DNA of 64,000 nt from contig NZ_JADWYU010000097.1 of the NCBI RefSeq assembly GCF_016786325.1, positions 1-64,000 on the forward strand. The letters run 5' to 3'. Source of the stretch: Frankia nepalensis (GTDB lineage Bacteria > Actinomycetota > Actinomycetes > Frankiales > Frankiaceae). Below are positions 46,439 to 60,536 of this stretch, piece by piece (within the stretch, counting starts at the first letter, position 1; every line of letters begins with the position of its first letter). Made by a program: the position numbers and the translations under genes. The notes below the pieces were generated by a model. The model worked only from the letters and a program-made list of their open reading frames with translations. It made no database searches and was not told the DNA's origin.

Positions 46439-47212
46439 CTACACGCCGACGGCGTGGAAGCCGCCGTCGACATGGATGATCTCGCCGCTGGTGGCCGGGA
46501 ACCAGTCGGACATCAGGGCGACGCAGGCGCGGGCGGCCGGCTCCGTGTTCTGGACGTCCCAGCCGAGCGGGGCACGCTCGTCCCAGACCTCCTCGAACTT
46601 CTCGAAGCCGGGGATGCTCTTGGCCGCCATGGTGCGCAGCGGGCCGGCGGAGATCAGGTTGACCCGCACCCCGCGCGGCCCGAGGTCGCGGGCCAGATAC
46701 CGGGTGGCTGAGGCAAGACCGGCCTTCGCCACCCCCATCCAGTCGTAGGACGGCCAGGCGACGGAGGCGTCGAAGTCGAGGCCGACGACGCTCGCGCGCT
46801 CGCCGAACAGCGGCAGCGACGCCCGGGTGAGCGCCGCCAGCGACCACGTCGACACCTGCAACGCGGTGCCCACCTCCGGCCAGGCGGCCTCGACGAACGG
46901 CTTGCCGCCAAGCACCGACTCGGGCGCGAAGCCGATCGCGTGCAGCACGGCGTCGAGGCCGTCGACGTGCTCGAGCACCTTGTCGGCGAGGCCACCGAGG
47001 TGCTCCTCGTTGGTCACATCCAGTTCGAGGACGGGCGCCTCGGTCGGCAACCGCCGCGAGATCCGGCGGGTAAGCGAGAGCCCGCGGCCGAAGCCGGTGA
47101 GTATGACCGTCGCGCCCTGCTCCTGCGCGATCCGGGCCACGGCGAACGCGATCGACGCGTCGGTCAGGACGCCGGTGACGAGGACCCGCTTGCCTTCGAG
47201 AAGTCCGCTCAT
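46439..47212 (-). CDS. inhA: Enoyl-[acyl-carrier-protein] reductase (InhA type)
   Basis: A 257-residue enzyme of the last fatty-acid elongation step, reducing enoyl-ACP with NADH. GKRVLVTGVLTDASIAFAVARIAQEQGATVILTGF is the InhA start, LDVTNEEHLGGLADKV and HAIGFAPES follow. YDWMGVAKAGL keeps the Tyr-x6-Lys pair and AAKSIPGF is the substrate-side loop. It ends DWFPATSGEIIHVDGG. ATG 47212 is chosen over two upstream ATGs by family length. FabG and ferrochelatase, its usual neighbours in mycobacteria, lie 11 kb away on the other strand. Confidence 0.93.
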   Translation of the reverse strand: MSGLLEGKRVLVTGVLTDASIAFAVARIAQEQGATVILTGFGRGLSLTRRISRRLPTEAPVLELDVTNEEHLGGLADKVLEHVDGLDAVLHAIGFAPESVLGGKPFVEAAWPEVGTALQVSTWSLAALTRASLPLFGERASVVGLDFDASVAWPSYDWMGVAKAGLASATRYLARDLGPRGVRVNLISAGPLRTMAAKSIPGFEKFEEVWDERAPLGWDVQNTEPAARACVALMSDWFPATSGEIIHVDGGFHAVGV

Positions 47213-47288
47213 GGTTGGCATCCTGCCAAAGGCAGGTTCTATGTCGACACACATCCGGTGCGCGCGCCGCCGCCGCCCAGCGGCCGGG

Positions 47289-53283: not shown

Positions 53284-54459
53284 ATGGACGACCACGCAGG
53301 TCAGGTCGCGGCCACCGGACAGCAGCTGACCCCGCAGAATCTCGAGCGGCTGGCCCGGCTCGCCCGGGAGCGTGGCGACCTCGACACCCTGCTGACCGCG
53401 CTCGACGCGCTGGTGTCGGTCAGCAGGGAGCGGGTTGCCTCGGCTACCAGCGGAGTCGCCGACCTGGCGCATCTGGCCGCCGTGCTGATCGAGCACGGCG
53501 ACGCGCTGCTTGACCACGGCCGGGCGGCGCCGGCGCAGGAGAACTACGAGGAAGCGCTACGGATCAACCGGCACCTGGCGACCGCCGACCGCACGCCCGA
53601 GTCCGAGCACCGCCTCGGCGTCAGCCTGGAGCGCGCCGGCGCCGCCCGCGCCGCGCTCGGGGATCTCGTCGGCGCGCTCGACATCCAGACCGAGTGCCTG
53701 GCGCTCGCCCACCGGATGATCGCGGACGGGGCGTCGGCGCCGCAGGCCCGGCAGCGGCTCGCCAACACCCTCGAGAAGATCGGCGACCTGCGTCAGCAGC
53801 AGGGAGACACCAAGGCCGCGCTGGACGCCTACACCGACGCGCTGGAGGTGCGCCGCGGGCTGCTCACCGTCTACGGCGAGGTCGCGCCGCTGCTGCGCGA
53901 CATCTCCCGCGGCCTGCTCGACGTGGGCGACATGCTGCGGCTGCGCGGCGACGTCGCCGGCGCGCTGGCCCGCTACGGGGAGGCCGTGACGACGGCCCGG
54001 CGCGCGCTCGCCGCCGCCGGCGCCACCGAGATCGACCCGACCGTGCCGCGTGCCCTGTTCCACTCGCTGAGCCTGGTGGGCAACATGCGCTACGACCAGG
54101 GGGACGTCGCCGGCGCGCTGGAGTCGTACGCGGAGTCGCTCGCGCTGGTGCGCTGGCTGCGGACCGAGTACGGCGAGCACCCGACCGTGCTGCGCGACCT
54201 GTCCGTCGGGCTGGACAAGGTCGCCGGGGCCAGGGAGGCCCTCGGAGACCTGGACGCGGCGCTGGAGGGTTTCGAGGAGGCGCTGGCCGTCGAACGCCGC
54301 CGCCGCCAGATCGTCGGTGACCGGCCGGAGATCCTGCGCGACCTGGTGTGGGCCCTGGAGCAGGTCGCCCGCGTCCGCGCCGCCGGCGGTGACACCTCCG
54401 GCGCCCAGGCGGCCGGCCGCGAGGCCCTCGCGCTGCGCGACGCGGCCGTCGCCCTCTAG
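53284..54459 (+). CDS. Tetratricopeptide-repeat protein
   Basis: A 391-residue all-helical protein. TPR-like pairs recur: AHLAAVLIEHGDALLDHGRAAPAQENYEEAL, HRLGVSLERAGAARAALGDLVGALDIQTECL, ANTLEKIGDLRQQQGDTKAALDAYTDAL, RGLLDVGDMLRLRGDVAGALARYGEAV, and two more. It has no signal or catalytic motif, so it probably serves as a scaffold. ATG at 53284. It is convergent with the E1-like gene (79-base spacer), but no functional link is shown. Confidence 0.85.
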   Translation: MDDHAGQVAATGQQLTPQNLERLARLARERGDLDTLLTALDALVSVSRERVASATSGVADLAHLAAVLIEHGDALLDHGRAAPAQENYEEALRINRHLATADRTPESEHRLGVSLERAGAARAALGDLVGALDIQTECLALAHRMIADGASAPQARQRLANTLEKIGDLRQQQGDTKAALDAYTDALEVRRGLLTVYGEVAPLLRDISRGLLDVGDMLRLRGDVAGALARYGEAVTTARRALAAAGATEIDPTVPRALFHSLSLVGNMRYDQGDVAGALESYAESLALVRWLRTEYGEHPTVLRDLSVGLDKVAGAREALGDLDAALEGFEEALAVERRRRQIVGDRPEILRDLVWALEQVARVRAAGGDTSGAQAAGREALALRDAAVAL

Positions 54460-54538
54460 CTCCCCGCGCGGTCGGGGGACGGGCGCCCCCGGGTCCGGGC
54501 AGTGCGCCGCGGGTCCGGGCCGTGATCCCCCGATTCCG

Positions 54539-57500
54539 TCACGGGGTGGTGAGGGAGAGCTTCAGGGCCGCCTCGACGACGGCGGCCACCTCGACCGGGG
54601 GCCGTCGGCCCGTCCCCGCGGCGGGGCCCGACGGCATGGCGGGCCCGACGGCGGCGAGGCGGTCGCCGTGGATGCCGGCCAGGAAGGCGAGCTGGCTGGG
54701 GTCGCCGGCGGTCACGGTGACCAGCGGCCCGCGCAGGTGCGCCGGGAACATCTCGTCCAGTACCGACACGGCGCCCGCGTCCGCGTCGGCCAGGCTGTCG
54801 CGGGCACGCAGCGCGTCGAAGAGCAGGTCGGCCGACGTCACGACGACCACACCCACCTCACGGCCCAGCCGGGCCGTCAGCTCGTCGGCCGCGGCCAGCA
54901 CCTCCGGCAGGCAGTCCCCCATGCCGACCAGCGTCGGCGCCGGTGCCGGGCCGCCGGCGCGCAGCCGGTAACCGCCCGCGAGCACGCCCGCGCGCCGCCC
55001 GGCCCGCTCGTCCCCGCCGGCCGGCACGGCCGCCAGGCGCTGGTCGACGGGCCGCGCGGACAGCCGCAGCAGGGTCGACGAGCCTCCTGCCCGCCCCAGC
55101 CGTCCCAGCGCCGCCAGCAGGCACCAGGACAGGTCCTCGGCGAAGGCCGGCTCGAAGCGGGTCACCCCGGGCAGCCCGGCGGCCCCGGCGGCGGCCAGCG
55201 CGAGTGCCGGGCCGATGAACGGCCCGTCGGCGCCCGTGTCGGCGACGGCGAGCACGGAGCGTCCGTCCGCGGCGCAGCCGGCGGCCCACGCCGGCAGCAC
55301 CCGGCCGGCCACGGCCTCGTCGGTCACCCCGATCGGCAGCAGCGGCAGGCCCTGCCGGTTCCAGGCGACCGCCAGGTTGCCGAGCGCCCCGGCGAACGCG
55401 CCAGGCGAGAGCGCCCCGGCGACGTGGCGCCGCCCGGTCGCCGAGGCGAGCACCCCCGCCGGCTGACCTCCCGGCTGACCTCCCGGAGGTGGCGCGGGCG
55501 GCGCGGTGGCGGGGCCGCCGGCCGGTCCCGCCGGGTCGAGCCAGCCGGCGACGACGGGGTCGGCGTCCCGGGTCGAGACGGTGACGACCACGCTGACCAC
55601 CTCCGGGGCGAGCGCGGCGAGGCCGCGCAGCAGACCGCCGAACGCCGCCTGGGTGGAGGTCACCGCCCCGCCGCTCCCACCCGCCCGGGCGGCGGCGGGG
55701 CCGAGATCGATCGGCACGGCCGGTGGAGACGGTGCCCGCCGCGGCGCCCGGTCCAGGTAGGAGGCCACGTGGGCCGCCAGCCGCGCGCCGCGGGTCCCCG
55801 CCGAGGGCGCGAGCCCGGTGCCCTCCGGCGTGTCCCCTCCCGGTGGCAGCACGACGGCGCCCGCGCCCATCGGCCGGATCGACGTGATCCCGACCGGCGG
55901 GGATCCCCGCCGCGCGGCGGGGGACTCGCGGCCGTCCGGGCCACGGGTCGAGGCGTCGTGGGTGTGCGCGAACAGCACCGTCGGCCGGTCCGCGGCCACG
56001 TCGTCGAAGGCGTCGATCAGCAGCGCCAGGTCGTGACCGCCGAGGTCACGCAGCGCGTCGTGGATCTCGTCGTCGGTCATCGGCTCCAGCAGCCCCGCCA
56101 CGCCGGCCCCCGCCGCGCCCGGCCCGGCGAGCCGGCGGCGCAGCTCGGGCCCATGGGCGGCCAGCAGTTCGTGGTACTCGTCCTGGCGCATCCGGCCCAG
56201 CCGGGCGCGCAGCGCCTGGCCACCGGGGCGGCGGAACAGCGCCTCCAGCCGCCGGCCGTAGCGCAGGGTGAGCACCTGCCAGCCGGCGGCCTCGAACATC
56301 CGGGCGGCCCGTTCCGGCCCGCCCGGCCCGGCCAGGCCGGCCCGGGGGTCGCCGTCGGCCTCGCTCCCGACCGCGGCGCCTGTGACCAGCACGACCCAGA
56401 ACAGCTCGCCCAGGTAGGGCGTCCGCTCGTCGGTGACGGCCTCCCAGACCGCCGCGTCGCGCAGCTCCGCGTACTCCAGGAGGCAGATGGACCGCCCGCC
56501 GGGGATGTGATCGAAGCGGGTGCCGGCGAACCGGCGGGCGAGCGCACCCCAGACCGTGCCGCTCGGCCCGACGAGGCCGGCGCCGGTCGCCCGCAGCGTC
56601 CGCGCCGAACGGCCCGCGGGCGCGGGCAGCCGGGCGTCTGCCTCGTCGCCCGGCCGGTCACCAGCCTGGCCGGCGTCGTCGTCCTGGCCGGCGGCGTCGT
56701 GGACGCTCGCGGGCCGGGAGGCCTCCAGGACCTGATGGACGGCGGCGAGCAGCGGCGCGGCGCGCGGCGTCACGCTGACCCGGTCCTCGGCGCGCAGCGC
56801 GTCGAACCACAGCACGGCGGCGACGGAGGACGCGGCCGTCGTCAGCGAGTGGCGCTGGGTGGCCGCCCGCGGGCCCAGCCCCCCGTCCCGGGCGGCCTCG
56901 TCGACGCCCGTGGCCGCGAGCCGGCACAGCCGGTCCTCGACCTCGGCGAGCGCTCCCAAATCGAGCACGCCGCCCGGCGGACCGGGGATGATCGCGCCTG
57001 GCCGTGCCGAGGCCGGGGCCGGCTCGGGCGGCGCGGCCGGAGCGTGCGGCCGGGCGCCGGCGTCGACCTGCCCTGGCCAGGGCCGCGCCGCGGCGGCCGG
57101 CCCGGCGAGCCAGGGGCCGCCGGCCGGGGCACTGCCGGGTGCCGGCCCGGAGGGGCGCGGCGGCTGGGGCGGCGGCCGTCGCGGCCGCGGCTGACCGACG
57201 GCGGGACCGTGGGCCGGCCGCGCGGGCACCTCGGCTGGCGGCTGGCCCGGCGCGGGCGGTGCCGCCTCGAGGGAACCGGGAGCCTGGGCAGGCCGCGCGG
57301 CCCAGCCGGCGACCGCCGCCTCGTCGGGCGGAAGGCCGGCGATCGGGGCCCCGCCGGCCGCGGGCTCGGCGCCCCCGGGCTCCGCCGCGGGGTCGGGCCG
57401 ACCGGGTGGTTCGTACGACCGCTCCCGTGGCCGGTACTCCACGTGCCGGATCCCGGGCCTGAACACGACGCCTGTCACTCCAGTCCCGACGCGAGAGCTC

Positions 57501-57571
57501 CCCGGCGCGTTGCCCGCCCGCGGGGCTCTCCCCGCCGCCGACGCGCCGCTCCAGCCTCCATCTTCCTTCAC
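54539..57571 (-). CDS. Pyruvate-dehydrogenase-E1/transketolase-like protein with eroded cofactor motifs
   Basis: A 1010-residue protein. The first ~230 residues are Pro/Ala/Gly-rich and disordered. The rest follows homodimeric (AceE-type) E1: AVWEAVTDERTPYLGELFWVVLV, ARMFEAAGWQVLTLRYGRRLEALFRRPGGQALRARL, DLGGHDLALLIDAFDDV, GLPLLPIGVTDEAVAGRVLPAW and RLSARPVDQRLAAV. The thiamin/Mg motif (GDGE...N) reads LLEYAELRDA...VLVT. The usual GIAE-M glutamate region reads GALSPGAF. Catalysis is doubtful. No other E1-E2-E3 genes are nearby. A regulatory or structural role is an inference. Confidence 0.75.
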   Translation of the reverse strand: MKEDGGWSGASAAGRAPRAGNAPGSSRVGTGVTGVVFRPGIRHVEYRPRERSYEPPGRPDPAAEPGGAEPAAGGAPIAGLPPDEAAVAGWAARPAQAPGSLEAAPPAPGQPPAEVPARPAHGPAVGQPRPRRPPPQPPRPSGPAPGSAPAGGPWLAGPAAAARPWPGQVDAGARPHAPAAPPEPAPASARPGAIIPGPPGGVLDLGALAEVEDRLCRLAATGVDEAARDGGLGPRAATQRHSLTTAASSVAAVLWFDALRAEDRVSVTPRAAPLLAAVHQVLEASRPASVHDAAGQDDDAGQAGDRPGDEADARLPAPAGRSARTLRATGAGLVGPSGTVWGALARRFAGTRFDHIPGGRSICLLEYAELRDAAVWEAVTDERTPYLGELFWVVLVTGAAVGSEADGDPRAGLAGPGGPERAARMFEAAGWQVLTLRYGRRLEALFRRPGGQALRARLGRMRQDEYHELLAAHGPELRRRLAGPGAAGAGVAGLLEPMTDDEIHDALRDLGGHDLALLIDAFDDVAADRPTVLFAHTHDASTRGPDGRESPAARRGSPPVGITSIRPMGAGAVVLPPGGDTPEGTGLAPSAGTRGARLAAHVASYLDRAPRRAPSPPAVPIDLGPAAARAGGSGGAVTSTQAAFGGLLRGLAALAPEVVSVVVTVSTRDADPVVAGWLDPAGPAGGPATAPPAPPPGGQPGGQPAGVLASATGRRHVAGALSPGAFAGALGNLAVAWNRQGLPLLPIGVTDEAVAGRVLPAWAAGCAADGRSVLAVADTGADGPFIGPALALAAAGAAGLPGVTRFEPAFAEDLSWCLLAALGRLGRAGGSSTLLRLSARPVDQRLAAVPAGGDERAGRRAGVLAGGYRLRAGGPAPAPTLVGMGDCLPEVLAAADELTARLGREVGVVVVTSADLLFDALRARDSLADADAGAVSVLDEMFPAHLRGPLVTVTAGDPSQLAFLAGIHGDRLAAVGPAMPSGPAAGTGRRPPVEVAAVVEAALKLSLTTP

Positions 57572-57692
57572 CAGTCCTCTCGAGGGCCCGTGCCGGGGGC
57601 CGCCGCCCCGTCGGCCCCGGCGGCGGCCGTGGGCCTCGCGGGCTCCTCGGGCCTGACAGGGCCGCTCACGGTGACCGGCGGGGCCCGGACCG

Positions 57693-57974
57693 TCAGCGGG
57701 AACGGCGCAGAGCGGTGAGGCGCTCGCGCAGGGCGGCCTCGTCGGTCGCGTTGATCTCGACCAGCTTGGCGCGGCTGGTGGCGCCGTGGACGAGGGTGAC
57801 GTCGCGGCGGCGCAGCCCGAGCGCGTCGGCGAGCGCCCGCAGCGCCGCCTCCGTCGCCCTGCCGTCGACGGCGCGCGCCGAGACCCGCACCACCAGACTC
57901 GGCTGTCCGTCCGCGGTGGCCACCTCCCCGCCGACCGCCGTCCGGCTCGCCCCCGGCTGCACCCTGATCGTCAC
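57693..57974 (-). CDS. DUF167 family protein (YggU-like)
   Basis: A 93-residue protein. TIRVQPGASRTAVGGE and SLVVRVSARAVDGRATEAALRALADALGLRRRDVTLVHGATSRAKLVEI are the complete DUF167 domain. GGAAGG lies six bases before the GTG at 57974. Function is unknown across bacteria. It is divergent from FabG. Confidence 0.88.
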   Translation of the reverse strand: MTIRVQPGASRTAVGGEVATADGQPSLVVRVSARAVDGRATEAALRALADALGLRRRDVTLVHGATSRAKLVEINATDEAALRERLTALRRSR

Positions 57975-58136: not shown

Positions 58137-58853
58137 ATGGTCGAGAACGAGGGTCGGGTGGCACTGGTCACCGGTGGTAACCGAGGGATCGGCGCCGCCT
58201 GCGCCGCGGCCCTGGCGGCGGACGGGCAGCGGGTGGCGGTGGCCAGCCGCGGGGGGGAGGCGCCGGCCGGGATGTTCGGCGTCCGGATGGACGTCACGAG
58301 CACCGAGTCGGTGGAGAAGGCGTTCGCCGAGGTCGAGGCCGAGCTGGGGCCGGTCGACATCCTCGTCTCCAACGCGGGTGTCGTGCGGGACACGCTGCTG
58401 CTCACCATGTCCGAGGACGCGTTCCGCGACGTCGTCGACACCAACCTGCTGGGCGCGTACCGGGTCGCCAAGCGGGCCGCCCGAGGCATGATCCGGCGCC
58501 GCTACGGCCGGCTGGTCTTCATCTCCTCCGTCGTGGGCCTGTCCGGGCAGCCCGGACAGGCGAACTACGCGGCCTCCAAGGCGGGCCTCGTCGGCTTCGC
58601 CCGCTCGCTCGCCCGCGAGCTCGCCCCTCGCTCGATCACCGCGAACGTCGTGGCGCCCGGCCCGATCCGTACCGACATGACCGACGCGCTCACCGACGCC
58701 CAGCGGGAACTGCTCGTCGCCAGCGTCCCGGGCAAGCGGATCGGCGAGCCGGAGGAGGTCGCCGCCGCGGTCGCCTTCCTCGCCTCCGAGCGCGCCGCGT
58801 ACATCACCGGCGCCGTCCTCCCCGTCGACGGCGGCGTGGGCATGGGGCACTGA
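58137..58853 (+). CDS. fabG: 3-oxoacyl-[acyl-carrier-protein] reductase
   Basis: A 238-residue FabG. VALVTGGNRGIGAACAAAL binds NADPH, LVSNAGVVRDTLLLTMSEDAF and VDTNLLGAYRVAKRA are characteristic, and the catalytic set is Ser in FISSVVGLSG with NYAASKAGLVGF. It ends ITGAVLPVDGGVGMGH. It reduces 3-ketoacyl-ACP in fatty-acid synthesis. Its neighbour is ferrochelatase, as in mycobacterial fabG-inhA-hemH, but inhA is absent between them. Confidence 0.93.
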   Translation: MVENEGRVALVTGGNRGIGAACAAALAADGQRVAVASRGGEAPAGMFGVRMDVTSTESVEKAFAEVEAELGPVDILVSNAGVVRDTLLLTMSEDAFRDVVDTNLLGAYRVAKRAARGMIRRRYGRLVFISSVVGLSGQPGQANYAASKAGLVGFARSLARELAPRSITANVVAPGPIRTDMTDALTDAQRELLVASVPGKRIGEPEEVAAAVAFLASERAAYITGAVLPVDGGVGMGH

Positions 58854-58979: not shown

Positions 58980-59186
58980 CCCCCGGTGGCTCGCGCTTCG
59001 CGCATCGCCGCCGTCCAGGTTGGCTTTCCATCCGGGGCGGCCGGCTGTGTCAGTGTGGTTGTTCGGCGGCATCGTGGTGGAGCGGCTGAACGGCCGGGGC
59101 CCGGCTCAGGTTGGTTGGGCGGCCCTGGACCTTGAGGGCTGGCCGCGGGTTGTTTGCCGGGGGTGGGGCTGGGAGAGAATGGCCTG

Positions 59187-60536
59187 ATGCGTCAGTCTTC
59201 AGCCGGGACCAGGGGGCCGGCGGCCGCCGAGCGGGTGGCTCGCCGGCCGGGCCGGGGGCCGGTGGAGCGCGGCGAGCGGACGGCCGGGGCGGGCCGGCCG
59301 GGTGAGGCCGAGATCGACGCCGTGCTGCTGGTGACGTTCGGGGGCCCGGACGAGCCGGCGGACGTGCTGCCGTTCCTGCGGAACGTGACCCGGGGGCGCG
59401 GGGTACCGGAGGAACGGATCGCCCAGGTCGCGGAGCACTATCACCAGCTCGGCGGGCGCAGCCCGATCAACGACCAGAGTCGCGAGCTGCTGGCCGCGCT
59501 GCGCGACGAGCTCGCGCCGCTGCCGGTCTACTGGGGCAACCGGAACTGGCGGCCCTACCTGCGCGACGCGCTGGCCGAGATGCGCGCGGACGGCGTGCGG
59601 CTGGCCGCCTGCTTCATCCCGTCGGTCTTCTCGACCTACTCCGGCTGCCGGCAGTACCGGGAGAACCTCGCCGAGGCGCTCGACGAGCTGGGCGCCGCCG
59701 GCGAGCCCGCTCCCGCGTTCGTCAAGCTGCGGGTGTTCTTCAACCATCCCGGGTTCCTGGAACCGATGGCCGACCGGGTCCAGGCGGCCCTCGAGACGCT
59801 CCCGGCCGACCGGCGCGACGGCGCCCACCTGGTCTTCGTCGCCCACTCGGTGCCGCGCTGGCAGGCGGTCGAGAGCGGGCCCGCGGGGGGTGCCTACGAG
59901 CGCCAGCTGCTGGCCGCGAGCCGGACCGTCGCCCGGCTGCTCGCCGAGCGGCGTGGCCGGGAACAGCCGTGGGACGTCGCGTACTGCAGCCGCAGCGGCT
60001 CGCCCCGGGTGCCGTGGCTGGAGCCGGACGTCGGTGACTGCCTCGAGCGGTTGGCCGCCGAAGGCGCGGAGTCGGTAGTGATCGTCCCCATCGGGTTTGT
60101 CAGCGACCACATGGAGGTCATCCAGGACCTCGACCGTGAGGCGCTGGCGCGAGCCGGGAAGCTAGGACTGACCGCGGCGCGGGCGGGCACGGTCGGCGCG
60201 GATCCGCGGTTCGTCCAGATGATCGTCGAGCTTGTCGAGGAGCGGCGCGACCCGAGCCGGCCTCGGCGGGCGCTCGGCGAGCTGGGCTCGTTTCCGGATG
60301 TCTGCCCGCTCGACTGCTGCGGCTCGCCGGCGACCGAGGACCGCCGGCCCGCGATGGCCGGCCTTCCCGAGGACGCGCTCGGTCGAGGGAGGTACCGGCG
60401 CGGCGCGGCCGAGCGCGGCGGGCCGGCGACGGCGGGCGGCCCCGGGCACTCGGAGGATGGCCGGCGTGTCTGGCGGACGGGGATACTGGATGAGGAGCTT
60501 CCGGACGCCCGGCCCGGGCGGCCGGACCGGCGCTGA
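59187..60536 (+). CDS. hemH: Coproporphyrin III ferrochelatase
   Basis: A 449-residue chelatase inserting iron for heme synthesis. AEIDAVLLVTFGGPDEPADVLPFL begins the domain, and HYHQLGGRSPINDQSRELL, VYWGNRNWRPYL, FVAHSVPRW and VPIGFVSDHMEVIQDLD are hallmarks. The cysteine-rich VCPLDCCGSPA matches the 2Fe-2S-bearing end of actinobacterial enzymes. An extra ~75 C-terminal residues and ~40 N-terminal residues are unusual. ATG 59187 with GGGAGAG upstream. Confidence 0.93.
   Translation: MRQSSAGTRGPAAAERVARRPGRGPVERGERTAGAGRPGEAEIDAVLLVTFGGPDEPADVLPFLRNVTRGRGVPEERIAQVAEHYHQLGGRSPINDQSRELLAALRDELAPLPVYWGNRNWRPYLRDALAEMRADGVRLAACFIPSVFSTYSGCRQYRENLAEALDELGAAGEPAPAFVKLRVFFNHPGFLEPMADRVQAALETLPADRRDGAHLVFVAHSVPRWQAVESGPAGGAYERQLLAASRTVARLLAERRGREQPWDVAYCSRSGSPRVPWLEPDVGDCLERLAAEGAESVVIVPIGFVSDHMEVIQDLDREALARAGKLGLTAARAGTVGADPRFVQMIVELVEERRDPSRPRRALGELGSFPDVCPLDCCGSPATEDRRPAMAGLPEDALGRGRYRRGAAERGGPATAGGPGHSEDGRRVWRTGILDEELPDARPGRPDRR

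Follow-up and report, generated by a model that had tools for sequence, protein, structure and literature searches.

A family-wide, apparently ThDP-less relative of short E1 enzymes retained beside fabG in the Frankiaceae

The window analysed here, 64,000 nucleotides of a Frankia nepalensis contig, encodes a large protein that resembles the E1/transketolase enzymes and yet seems to be devoid of their thiamin motifs. Is it a decaying copy of an enzyme of central metabolism, or a member of an established family that keeps the E1 fold for some other role? The open reading frame itself (54539-57571, reverse strand) and the AceE-like stretches quoted in the initial annotation are both present as described. 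Its GC content by codon position (0.84/0.65/0.93) is the signature of a coding gene and hence marks it as real; the overlapping forward-strand frame at 54317-57718, ruled out as a gene by its codon composition, is therefore antisense noise. Two observations favour the GTG at 57466 as the likely start, giving about 975 residues: five genomes of the genus share V(F/H/Y)RPGIRHVEYRPRE from this codon onwards, and a GGAG precedes it; the initial 35 codons of the frame are probably untranslated. Given this start, the Pro-rich N-terminus, previously put at 230 residues, shortens to about 165, with Pro and Ala accounting for 28% and 23% of residues 36-200. Scans for sigma-70 promoters and terminators at the gene found none.

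The homology of this protein, hereafter pseudo-E1, to E1 is well above chance. As a single sequence it matched the profiles TIGR03186 (2e-11) and aceE (2e-8), and a comparison with AceE structures, proposed as a check in the initial annotation, recovered E. coli AceE at 5e-4 with one sequence and at 5e-10 with a profile of 11 orthologues. Against TIGR00759 (AceE/homodimeric PDH E1) it scored 32.6 bits, below the curated cut-off of 859.9 bits, and PF22613 was matched with E 0.005 by the core and 0.007 by the full length, 9 of the 11 orthologues matching at E<=0.01 (best 2e-5). Profile-profile comparison (hhalign) gave E 4e-9 for AceE versus 3e-107, over 754 columns, for a family of short E1s of about 780 residues. 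These nearest relatives, annotated as 'transketolase' or 'pyruvate dehydrogenase E1', occur in actinobacteria and alphaproteobacteria (Rhodococcus rhodochrous WP_159419544, Arthrobacter BCW86422), including on plasmids of Rhodococcus, Streptomyces, Mycobacterium, Arthrobacter, Azospirillum and Mesorhizobium; their genes often adjoin one for an Lrp/AsnC regulator and once an E2 gene, and they are probably ThDP-competent. Pseudomonas MdeB is, we presume, a possible further relative, and a literature search on it found nothing usable.

In the tree, pseudo-E1 groups with actinobacterial members of the short E1 family (support 99/100) and forms a monophyletic clade (100/100) whose stem measures 0.96 changes per column, arising from active actinobacterial short E1s, with the exact sister unsure owing to some long branches and uneven composition. 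Sequence comparison thus points to a derivation from the often AsnC-linked short E1 family, and the tree together with the profile-profile comparisons rules out a direct duplicate of aceE. Of the previously proposed 'inactive paralogue', the first half stands, in that the protein, a relative of E1/AceE, appears to be ThDP-less and inactive, but it is a divergent member of the short E1 family and not a paralogue of aceE. The same genome also carries a motif-intact short E1 on C352 (L006:8489-10804), a 771-residue protein with 38-40% identity over most of the length. It lies in a catabolic-looking cluster of FAD monooxygenase, fumarylacetoacetate-hydrolase-like, AMP-ligase and dioxygenase-like genes with two PucR-like regulators, all named by eye from translations; a similar cluster flanks the short E1 copy of Rhodococcus pNit.

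The absence of the GDGE motif, its Asn partner and the thiamin-activating Glu, as read earlier from the single sequence, was upheld by an alignment of 29 proteins that includes AceE, 11 short E1 relatives and the pseudo-E1 orthologues. In every AceE sequence and in all 11 short E1s the full set is present: both His, the Asp of GD(G/A)E with its Asn/Gln metal partners, the Asp of the pyrimidine domain, the activating Glu and the His of EGGAH/EGLQH. Across the 12 readable copies of pseudo-E1 (the G015 copy is masked across half of the motif positions), all of these catalytic positions are replaced save the second His, which is kept in most orthologues and is Arg in the window protein. There, GDG has become EYA (366-368), the metal-binding Asn and Gln T397 and A399, the activating Glu P723, the GGH His R240 and the pyrimidine-domain Asp R668, while the EGGAH His is lost. 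Among the orthologues, the 11 best-aligned copies have (E/R/D)(Y/F) for GD and the two most divergent ones DA or DH; Asn has given way to T, S or P and rarely to A or R, Glu to P or A, and Asp to Arg (Gln in G011). The mobile active-site loops of AceE, 401-413 and 541-557 (PMC6270654), correspond to variable, Pro/Gly-rich low-complexity stretches. Since all the motifs were lost together, normal binding of ThDP/Mg appears very unlikely, and the protein is very probably incapable of E1 chemistry. Around the Asn site, the copy L021 (G006:C146) reads EGAPAARPPYRGARGGGGRAAGAAGG where other copies have EAVTDERTPYLGELFWVVLVTGAAVG, probably through two compensating frameshifts, whether a sequencing error or real.

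Table 1. Features of the pseudo-E1 locus, in positions of the 64,000-nucleotide window.
Feature	Position	Strand	Basis or remark
Pseudo-E1 gene as open reading frame	54539..57571	-	1010 aa/codons, GTG start; coding GC signature
N-terminal tip motif (V)FRPGIRHVEYRPRERSYEPPGRP, conserved	57395..57466	-	In G000, G001, G002, G003, G004
Second short N-terminal motif, LPPDEAAVAGW	57302..57334	-	LPxDEAAVA(G/D) in G000, G001, G003, G004, G007
Pro/Ala-rich arm, variable, containing LPPDEAAVAGW	56963..57394	-	Length and sequence differ among orthologues
ThDP-diphosphate-domain-like region, residues 205-545, without metal/diphosphate motif	55937..56959	-	Alignment to short E1 and AceE
LLEYAELRD replacing (L)xGD(A/G)E(L/M)DE	56456..56482	-	Asp230 position Tyr/Phe in 11 best-aligned copies
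LVTGA replacing DLNRQ/NCNLQ; Mg-ligand Asn and Gln lost	56375..56389	-	Alignment
Variable Pro/Gly-rich stretch at AceE inner active-site loop 401-413 (His407)	55781..55951	-	Alignment; loop from PMC6270654
Pyrimidine-domain-like region, residues 600-845	55037..55774	-	Profile-profile and residue-level alignment
STRDAD replacing SPDVSS; Asp to Arg668	55559..55576	-	Alignment
Low-complexity Pro/Gly stretch at region with AceE outer loop 541-557	55424..55525	-	Alignment; loop from PMC6270654
GALSPGAF replacing GIAETNL; activating Glu to Pro (Ala in others)	55394..55417	-	Alignment
Region of lost EGGAHQS (AceE His640)	55172..55240	-	Alignment
Transketolase C-terminal-like domain, residues 855-1005	54557..55009	-	PF22613 below curated cut-off
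DUF167/YggU gene, upstream, same strand as pseudo-E1	57693..57974	-	PF02594 E 1e-22
fabG-type dehydrogenase gene, divergent from pseudo-E1	58137..58853	+	Named from sequence, by eye
hemH (ferrochelatase-like) gene, conserved neighbour	59154..60536	+	Named from sequence, by eye

A search of genome collections (samples) with a 202-residue segment as query recovered orthologues in 13 genomes: all eight of the genus, and the remainder spread over four other genera of the Frankiaceae, which brings the total to five genera. This confirms the form as conserved in the family, where it constitutes a single clade, a question that the initial annotation had posed. In two genomes of the same family, G010 (63% complete) and G013, only the motif-intact short form was found, and in a third, G009, only AceE. 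Absence outside the Frankiaceae is defined by one peptide-pattern scan and by nine genomes sampled in other families of the same class, which had no pseudo-E1 and at most AceE.

The genomic position is likewise fixed: at each orthologue locus where the contig extends to that side, pseudo-E1 is adjoined by a divergent fabG, together with hemH. The immediate neighbours here are TPR, GH15, DUF167, fabG, hemH and DUF3090 genes, none recognised as coding for AsnC or E2 (small frames were scanned in part). DUF167, TPR, GH15 or fabI genes are often near the orthologues; DUF167/YggU, which stands between fabG and pseudo-E1 in several genomes, is present at the locus in G007, G001, G003 and G012 as well, and none was detected at the locus in G004, G002, G014 and G008. 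The surroundings seem to have been rearranged repeatedly. In the window, fabI (46439-47254, reverse strand) is about 11 kb from fabG, and it lies close beside pseudo-E1 in G008, G012 and G014.

Pseudo-E1 is under purifying selection. The dN/dS among orthologues is 0.31-0.48 in close and distant pairs alike, and 0.11-0.25 for AceE and motif-intact short E1, estimates that are rough and probably too high at a GC3 near 95%; substitution by codon position is 0.18/0.21/0.39. Within the clade, identity averages 0.67, 0.65 and 0.60 in the three regions, and conservation is weaker than that of the active E1s. Homology to an enzyme family, loss of the catalytic residues and retention under selection are hence found together, and we conclude with high confidence that pseudo-E1 is a retained, established pseudoenzyme with the E1/transketolase fold rather than a decaying copy, because the loss of motifs is clade-wide, the fully supported clade sits on a long stem and selection is purifying. 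The description of the enzyme as 'eroded' is accordingly misleading, as the loss is ancient. Further, since nearly all the thiamin residues are gone and yet the gene has been kept across at least five genera, its job is probably new and non-thiamin; the family-wide conservation of the form fits the retained 'new role' that had been proposed.

As to what that role might be, we favour, with moderate confidence, a non-catalytic, dimeric E1-fold scaffold or regulator. Under this proposal, pseudo-E1, its E1 chemistry very probably lost with normal ThDP/Mg binding, would have been fixed beside fabG-hemH before the split of the sampled Frankiaceae genera that carry the gene and kept since. A rigid core would hold the dimer, probably a homodimer by analogy with AceE-type E1s, while the Pro/Ala arm, flexible and bearing short conserved motifs at its tip, would act as a tether docking a partner in acyl/acetyl metabolism; a guess at that partner would be either the PDH complex or FabG/FabI, the fatty-acid enzymes whose genes lie nearby. 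We infer dimerisation and docking alike, and the position beside fabG, joined in several genomes by fabI, suggests the link to acyl metabolism. The arm, for its part, may not be the working part, because the tip motif (V)FRPGIRHVEYRPRERSYEPPGRP occurs in five of the eight copies of the genus (those of G005 and G006 are cut by contig ends and that of G007 differs) and is absent from the other genera. An AlphaFold prediction of the core from two sequences, the second that of Frankia HOG45C, had a pLDDT of 31 and was not used.

The main rival to this scaffold or regulator reading, unlikely but deserving serious weight, is a new ThDP-independent enzyme or ligand-binding protein in which the old cofactor cleft has been rebuilt to bind another metabolite. 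In its favour, many sites close to the former active site, conserved in the parent, now hold another residue, invariant in 10 orthologues, with R371, D372, T667, R668, D751, E752 and D778 as the new invariant residues. However, although newly invariant sites at first seem enriched around the old active site (Fisher p 4e-6), a comparison confined to lost parent-conserved sites reduces the contrast to 14 of 39 near the site against 11 of 42 elsewhere, which is not clearly above the background, and no recognisable new motif is seen. The former active-site columns are conserved about like the rest of the protein, no more, and the pocket is therefore not drifting freely. Quite improbable, in our estimate, is the specific scenario of a Frankiaceae-specific former E1 rebuilt as a regulator or ligand sensor that links acetyl-CoA supply to the neighbouring fabG/fabI fatty-acid synthesis.

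The active sites of E1s and transketolases form at dimer interfaces. A dead subunit could hence pair with an active E1 as a heterodimer and tune its activity, in the manner of non-catalytic subunits elsewhere, a reading that we consider rather improbable. An active candidate is at hand: an intact aceE, for which the initial annotation had advised a search, is present on C105 with its motifs intact, and PDH_E1_M matches of AceE strength occur in all eight genomes of the genus. Yet this co-occurrence is weak evidence, because AceE is nearly universal in these bacteria, and AceE is only about 21% identical to pseudo-E1. The short E1, its nearest active relative, is found in three of the eight genomes and so is not a general partner.

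Two further readings are far less probable. A decaying, essentially neutral relic of a short E1, acquired horizontally or vertically, would accord with a dN/dS two to three times as high as in active E1s and with the low-complexity insertions and variable length, but such a pseudogene is disfavoured by frames open in 13 orthologues of five genera (one copy partly masked), a dN/dS that stays well under 1 in close pairs too, the codon-position pattern of substitution and the fixed genomic place. Equally remote is retention of ThDP with catalysis through non-canonical residues: loss of the Glu would by itself be no proof of inactivity, because in glyoxylate carboligases, for which another mechanism is assumed, Val takes its place (PMC3534367), but pseudo-E1 lacks all at once the Asp, Asn and Gln of the metal/diphosphate site, the Glu, most His and both loops, with Tyr/Phe standing for the Asp.

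A search of the open-access literature for pseudoenzymes of ThDP-dependent E1s in bacteria found no relevant paper, and such proteins seem little described. Being family-wide, syntenic and old, pseudo-E1 offers a clean case of the E1 fold used without its cofactor, and, in a family whose members include nitrogen-fixing symbionts of plants, it is a candidate regulator of acyl metabolism. Its place among known systems can be drawn from three comparisons. With AceE it shares a core alignable in the same order, with AGWxV, GGHD and transketolase C-terminal features conserved, but it has none of the ThDP motifs and its N-terminus is unrelated to that of AceE, which binds the E2 PSBD (PMC6270654). 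To the short E1 family it aligns along the whole core, whereas both His, GDAE, DxNRQ, GIAE and EGGAH, kept in that family, are none of them intact in the pseudo-E1 clade, which has in turn added the N-terminal arm and has fabG as its neighbour. Finally, among transketolase-like pseudoenzymes, of which TKTL1 is an example, it finds a parallel as a member of the transketolase superfamily that was retained despite a damaged cofactor site; the two differ, however, in family and lineage, and in pseudo-E1 it is not one stretch but nearly all of the cofactor motifs that have gone.
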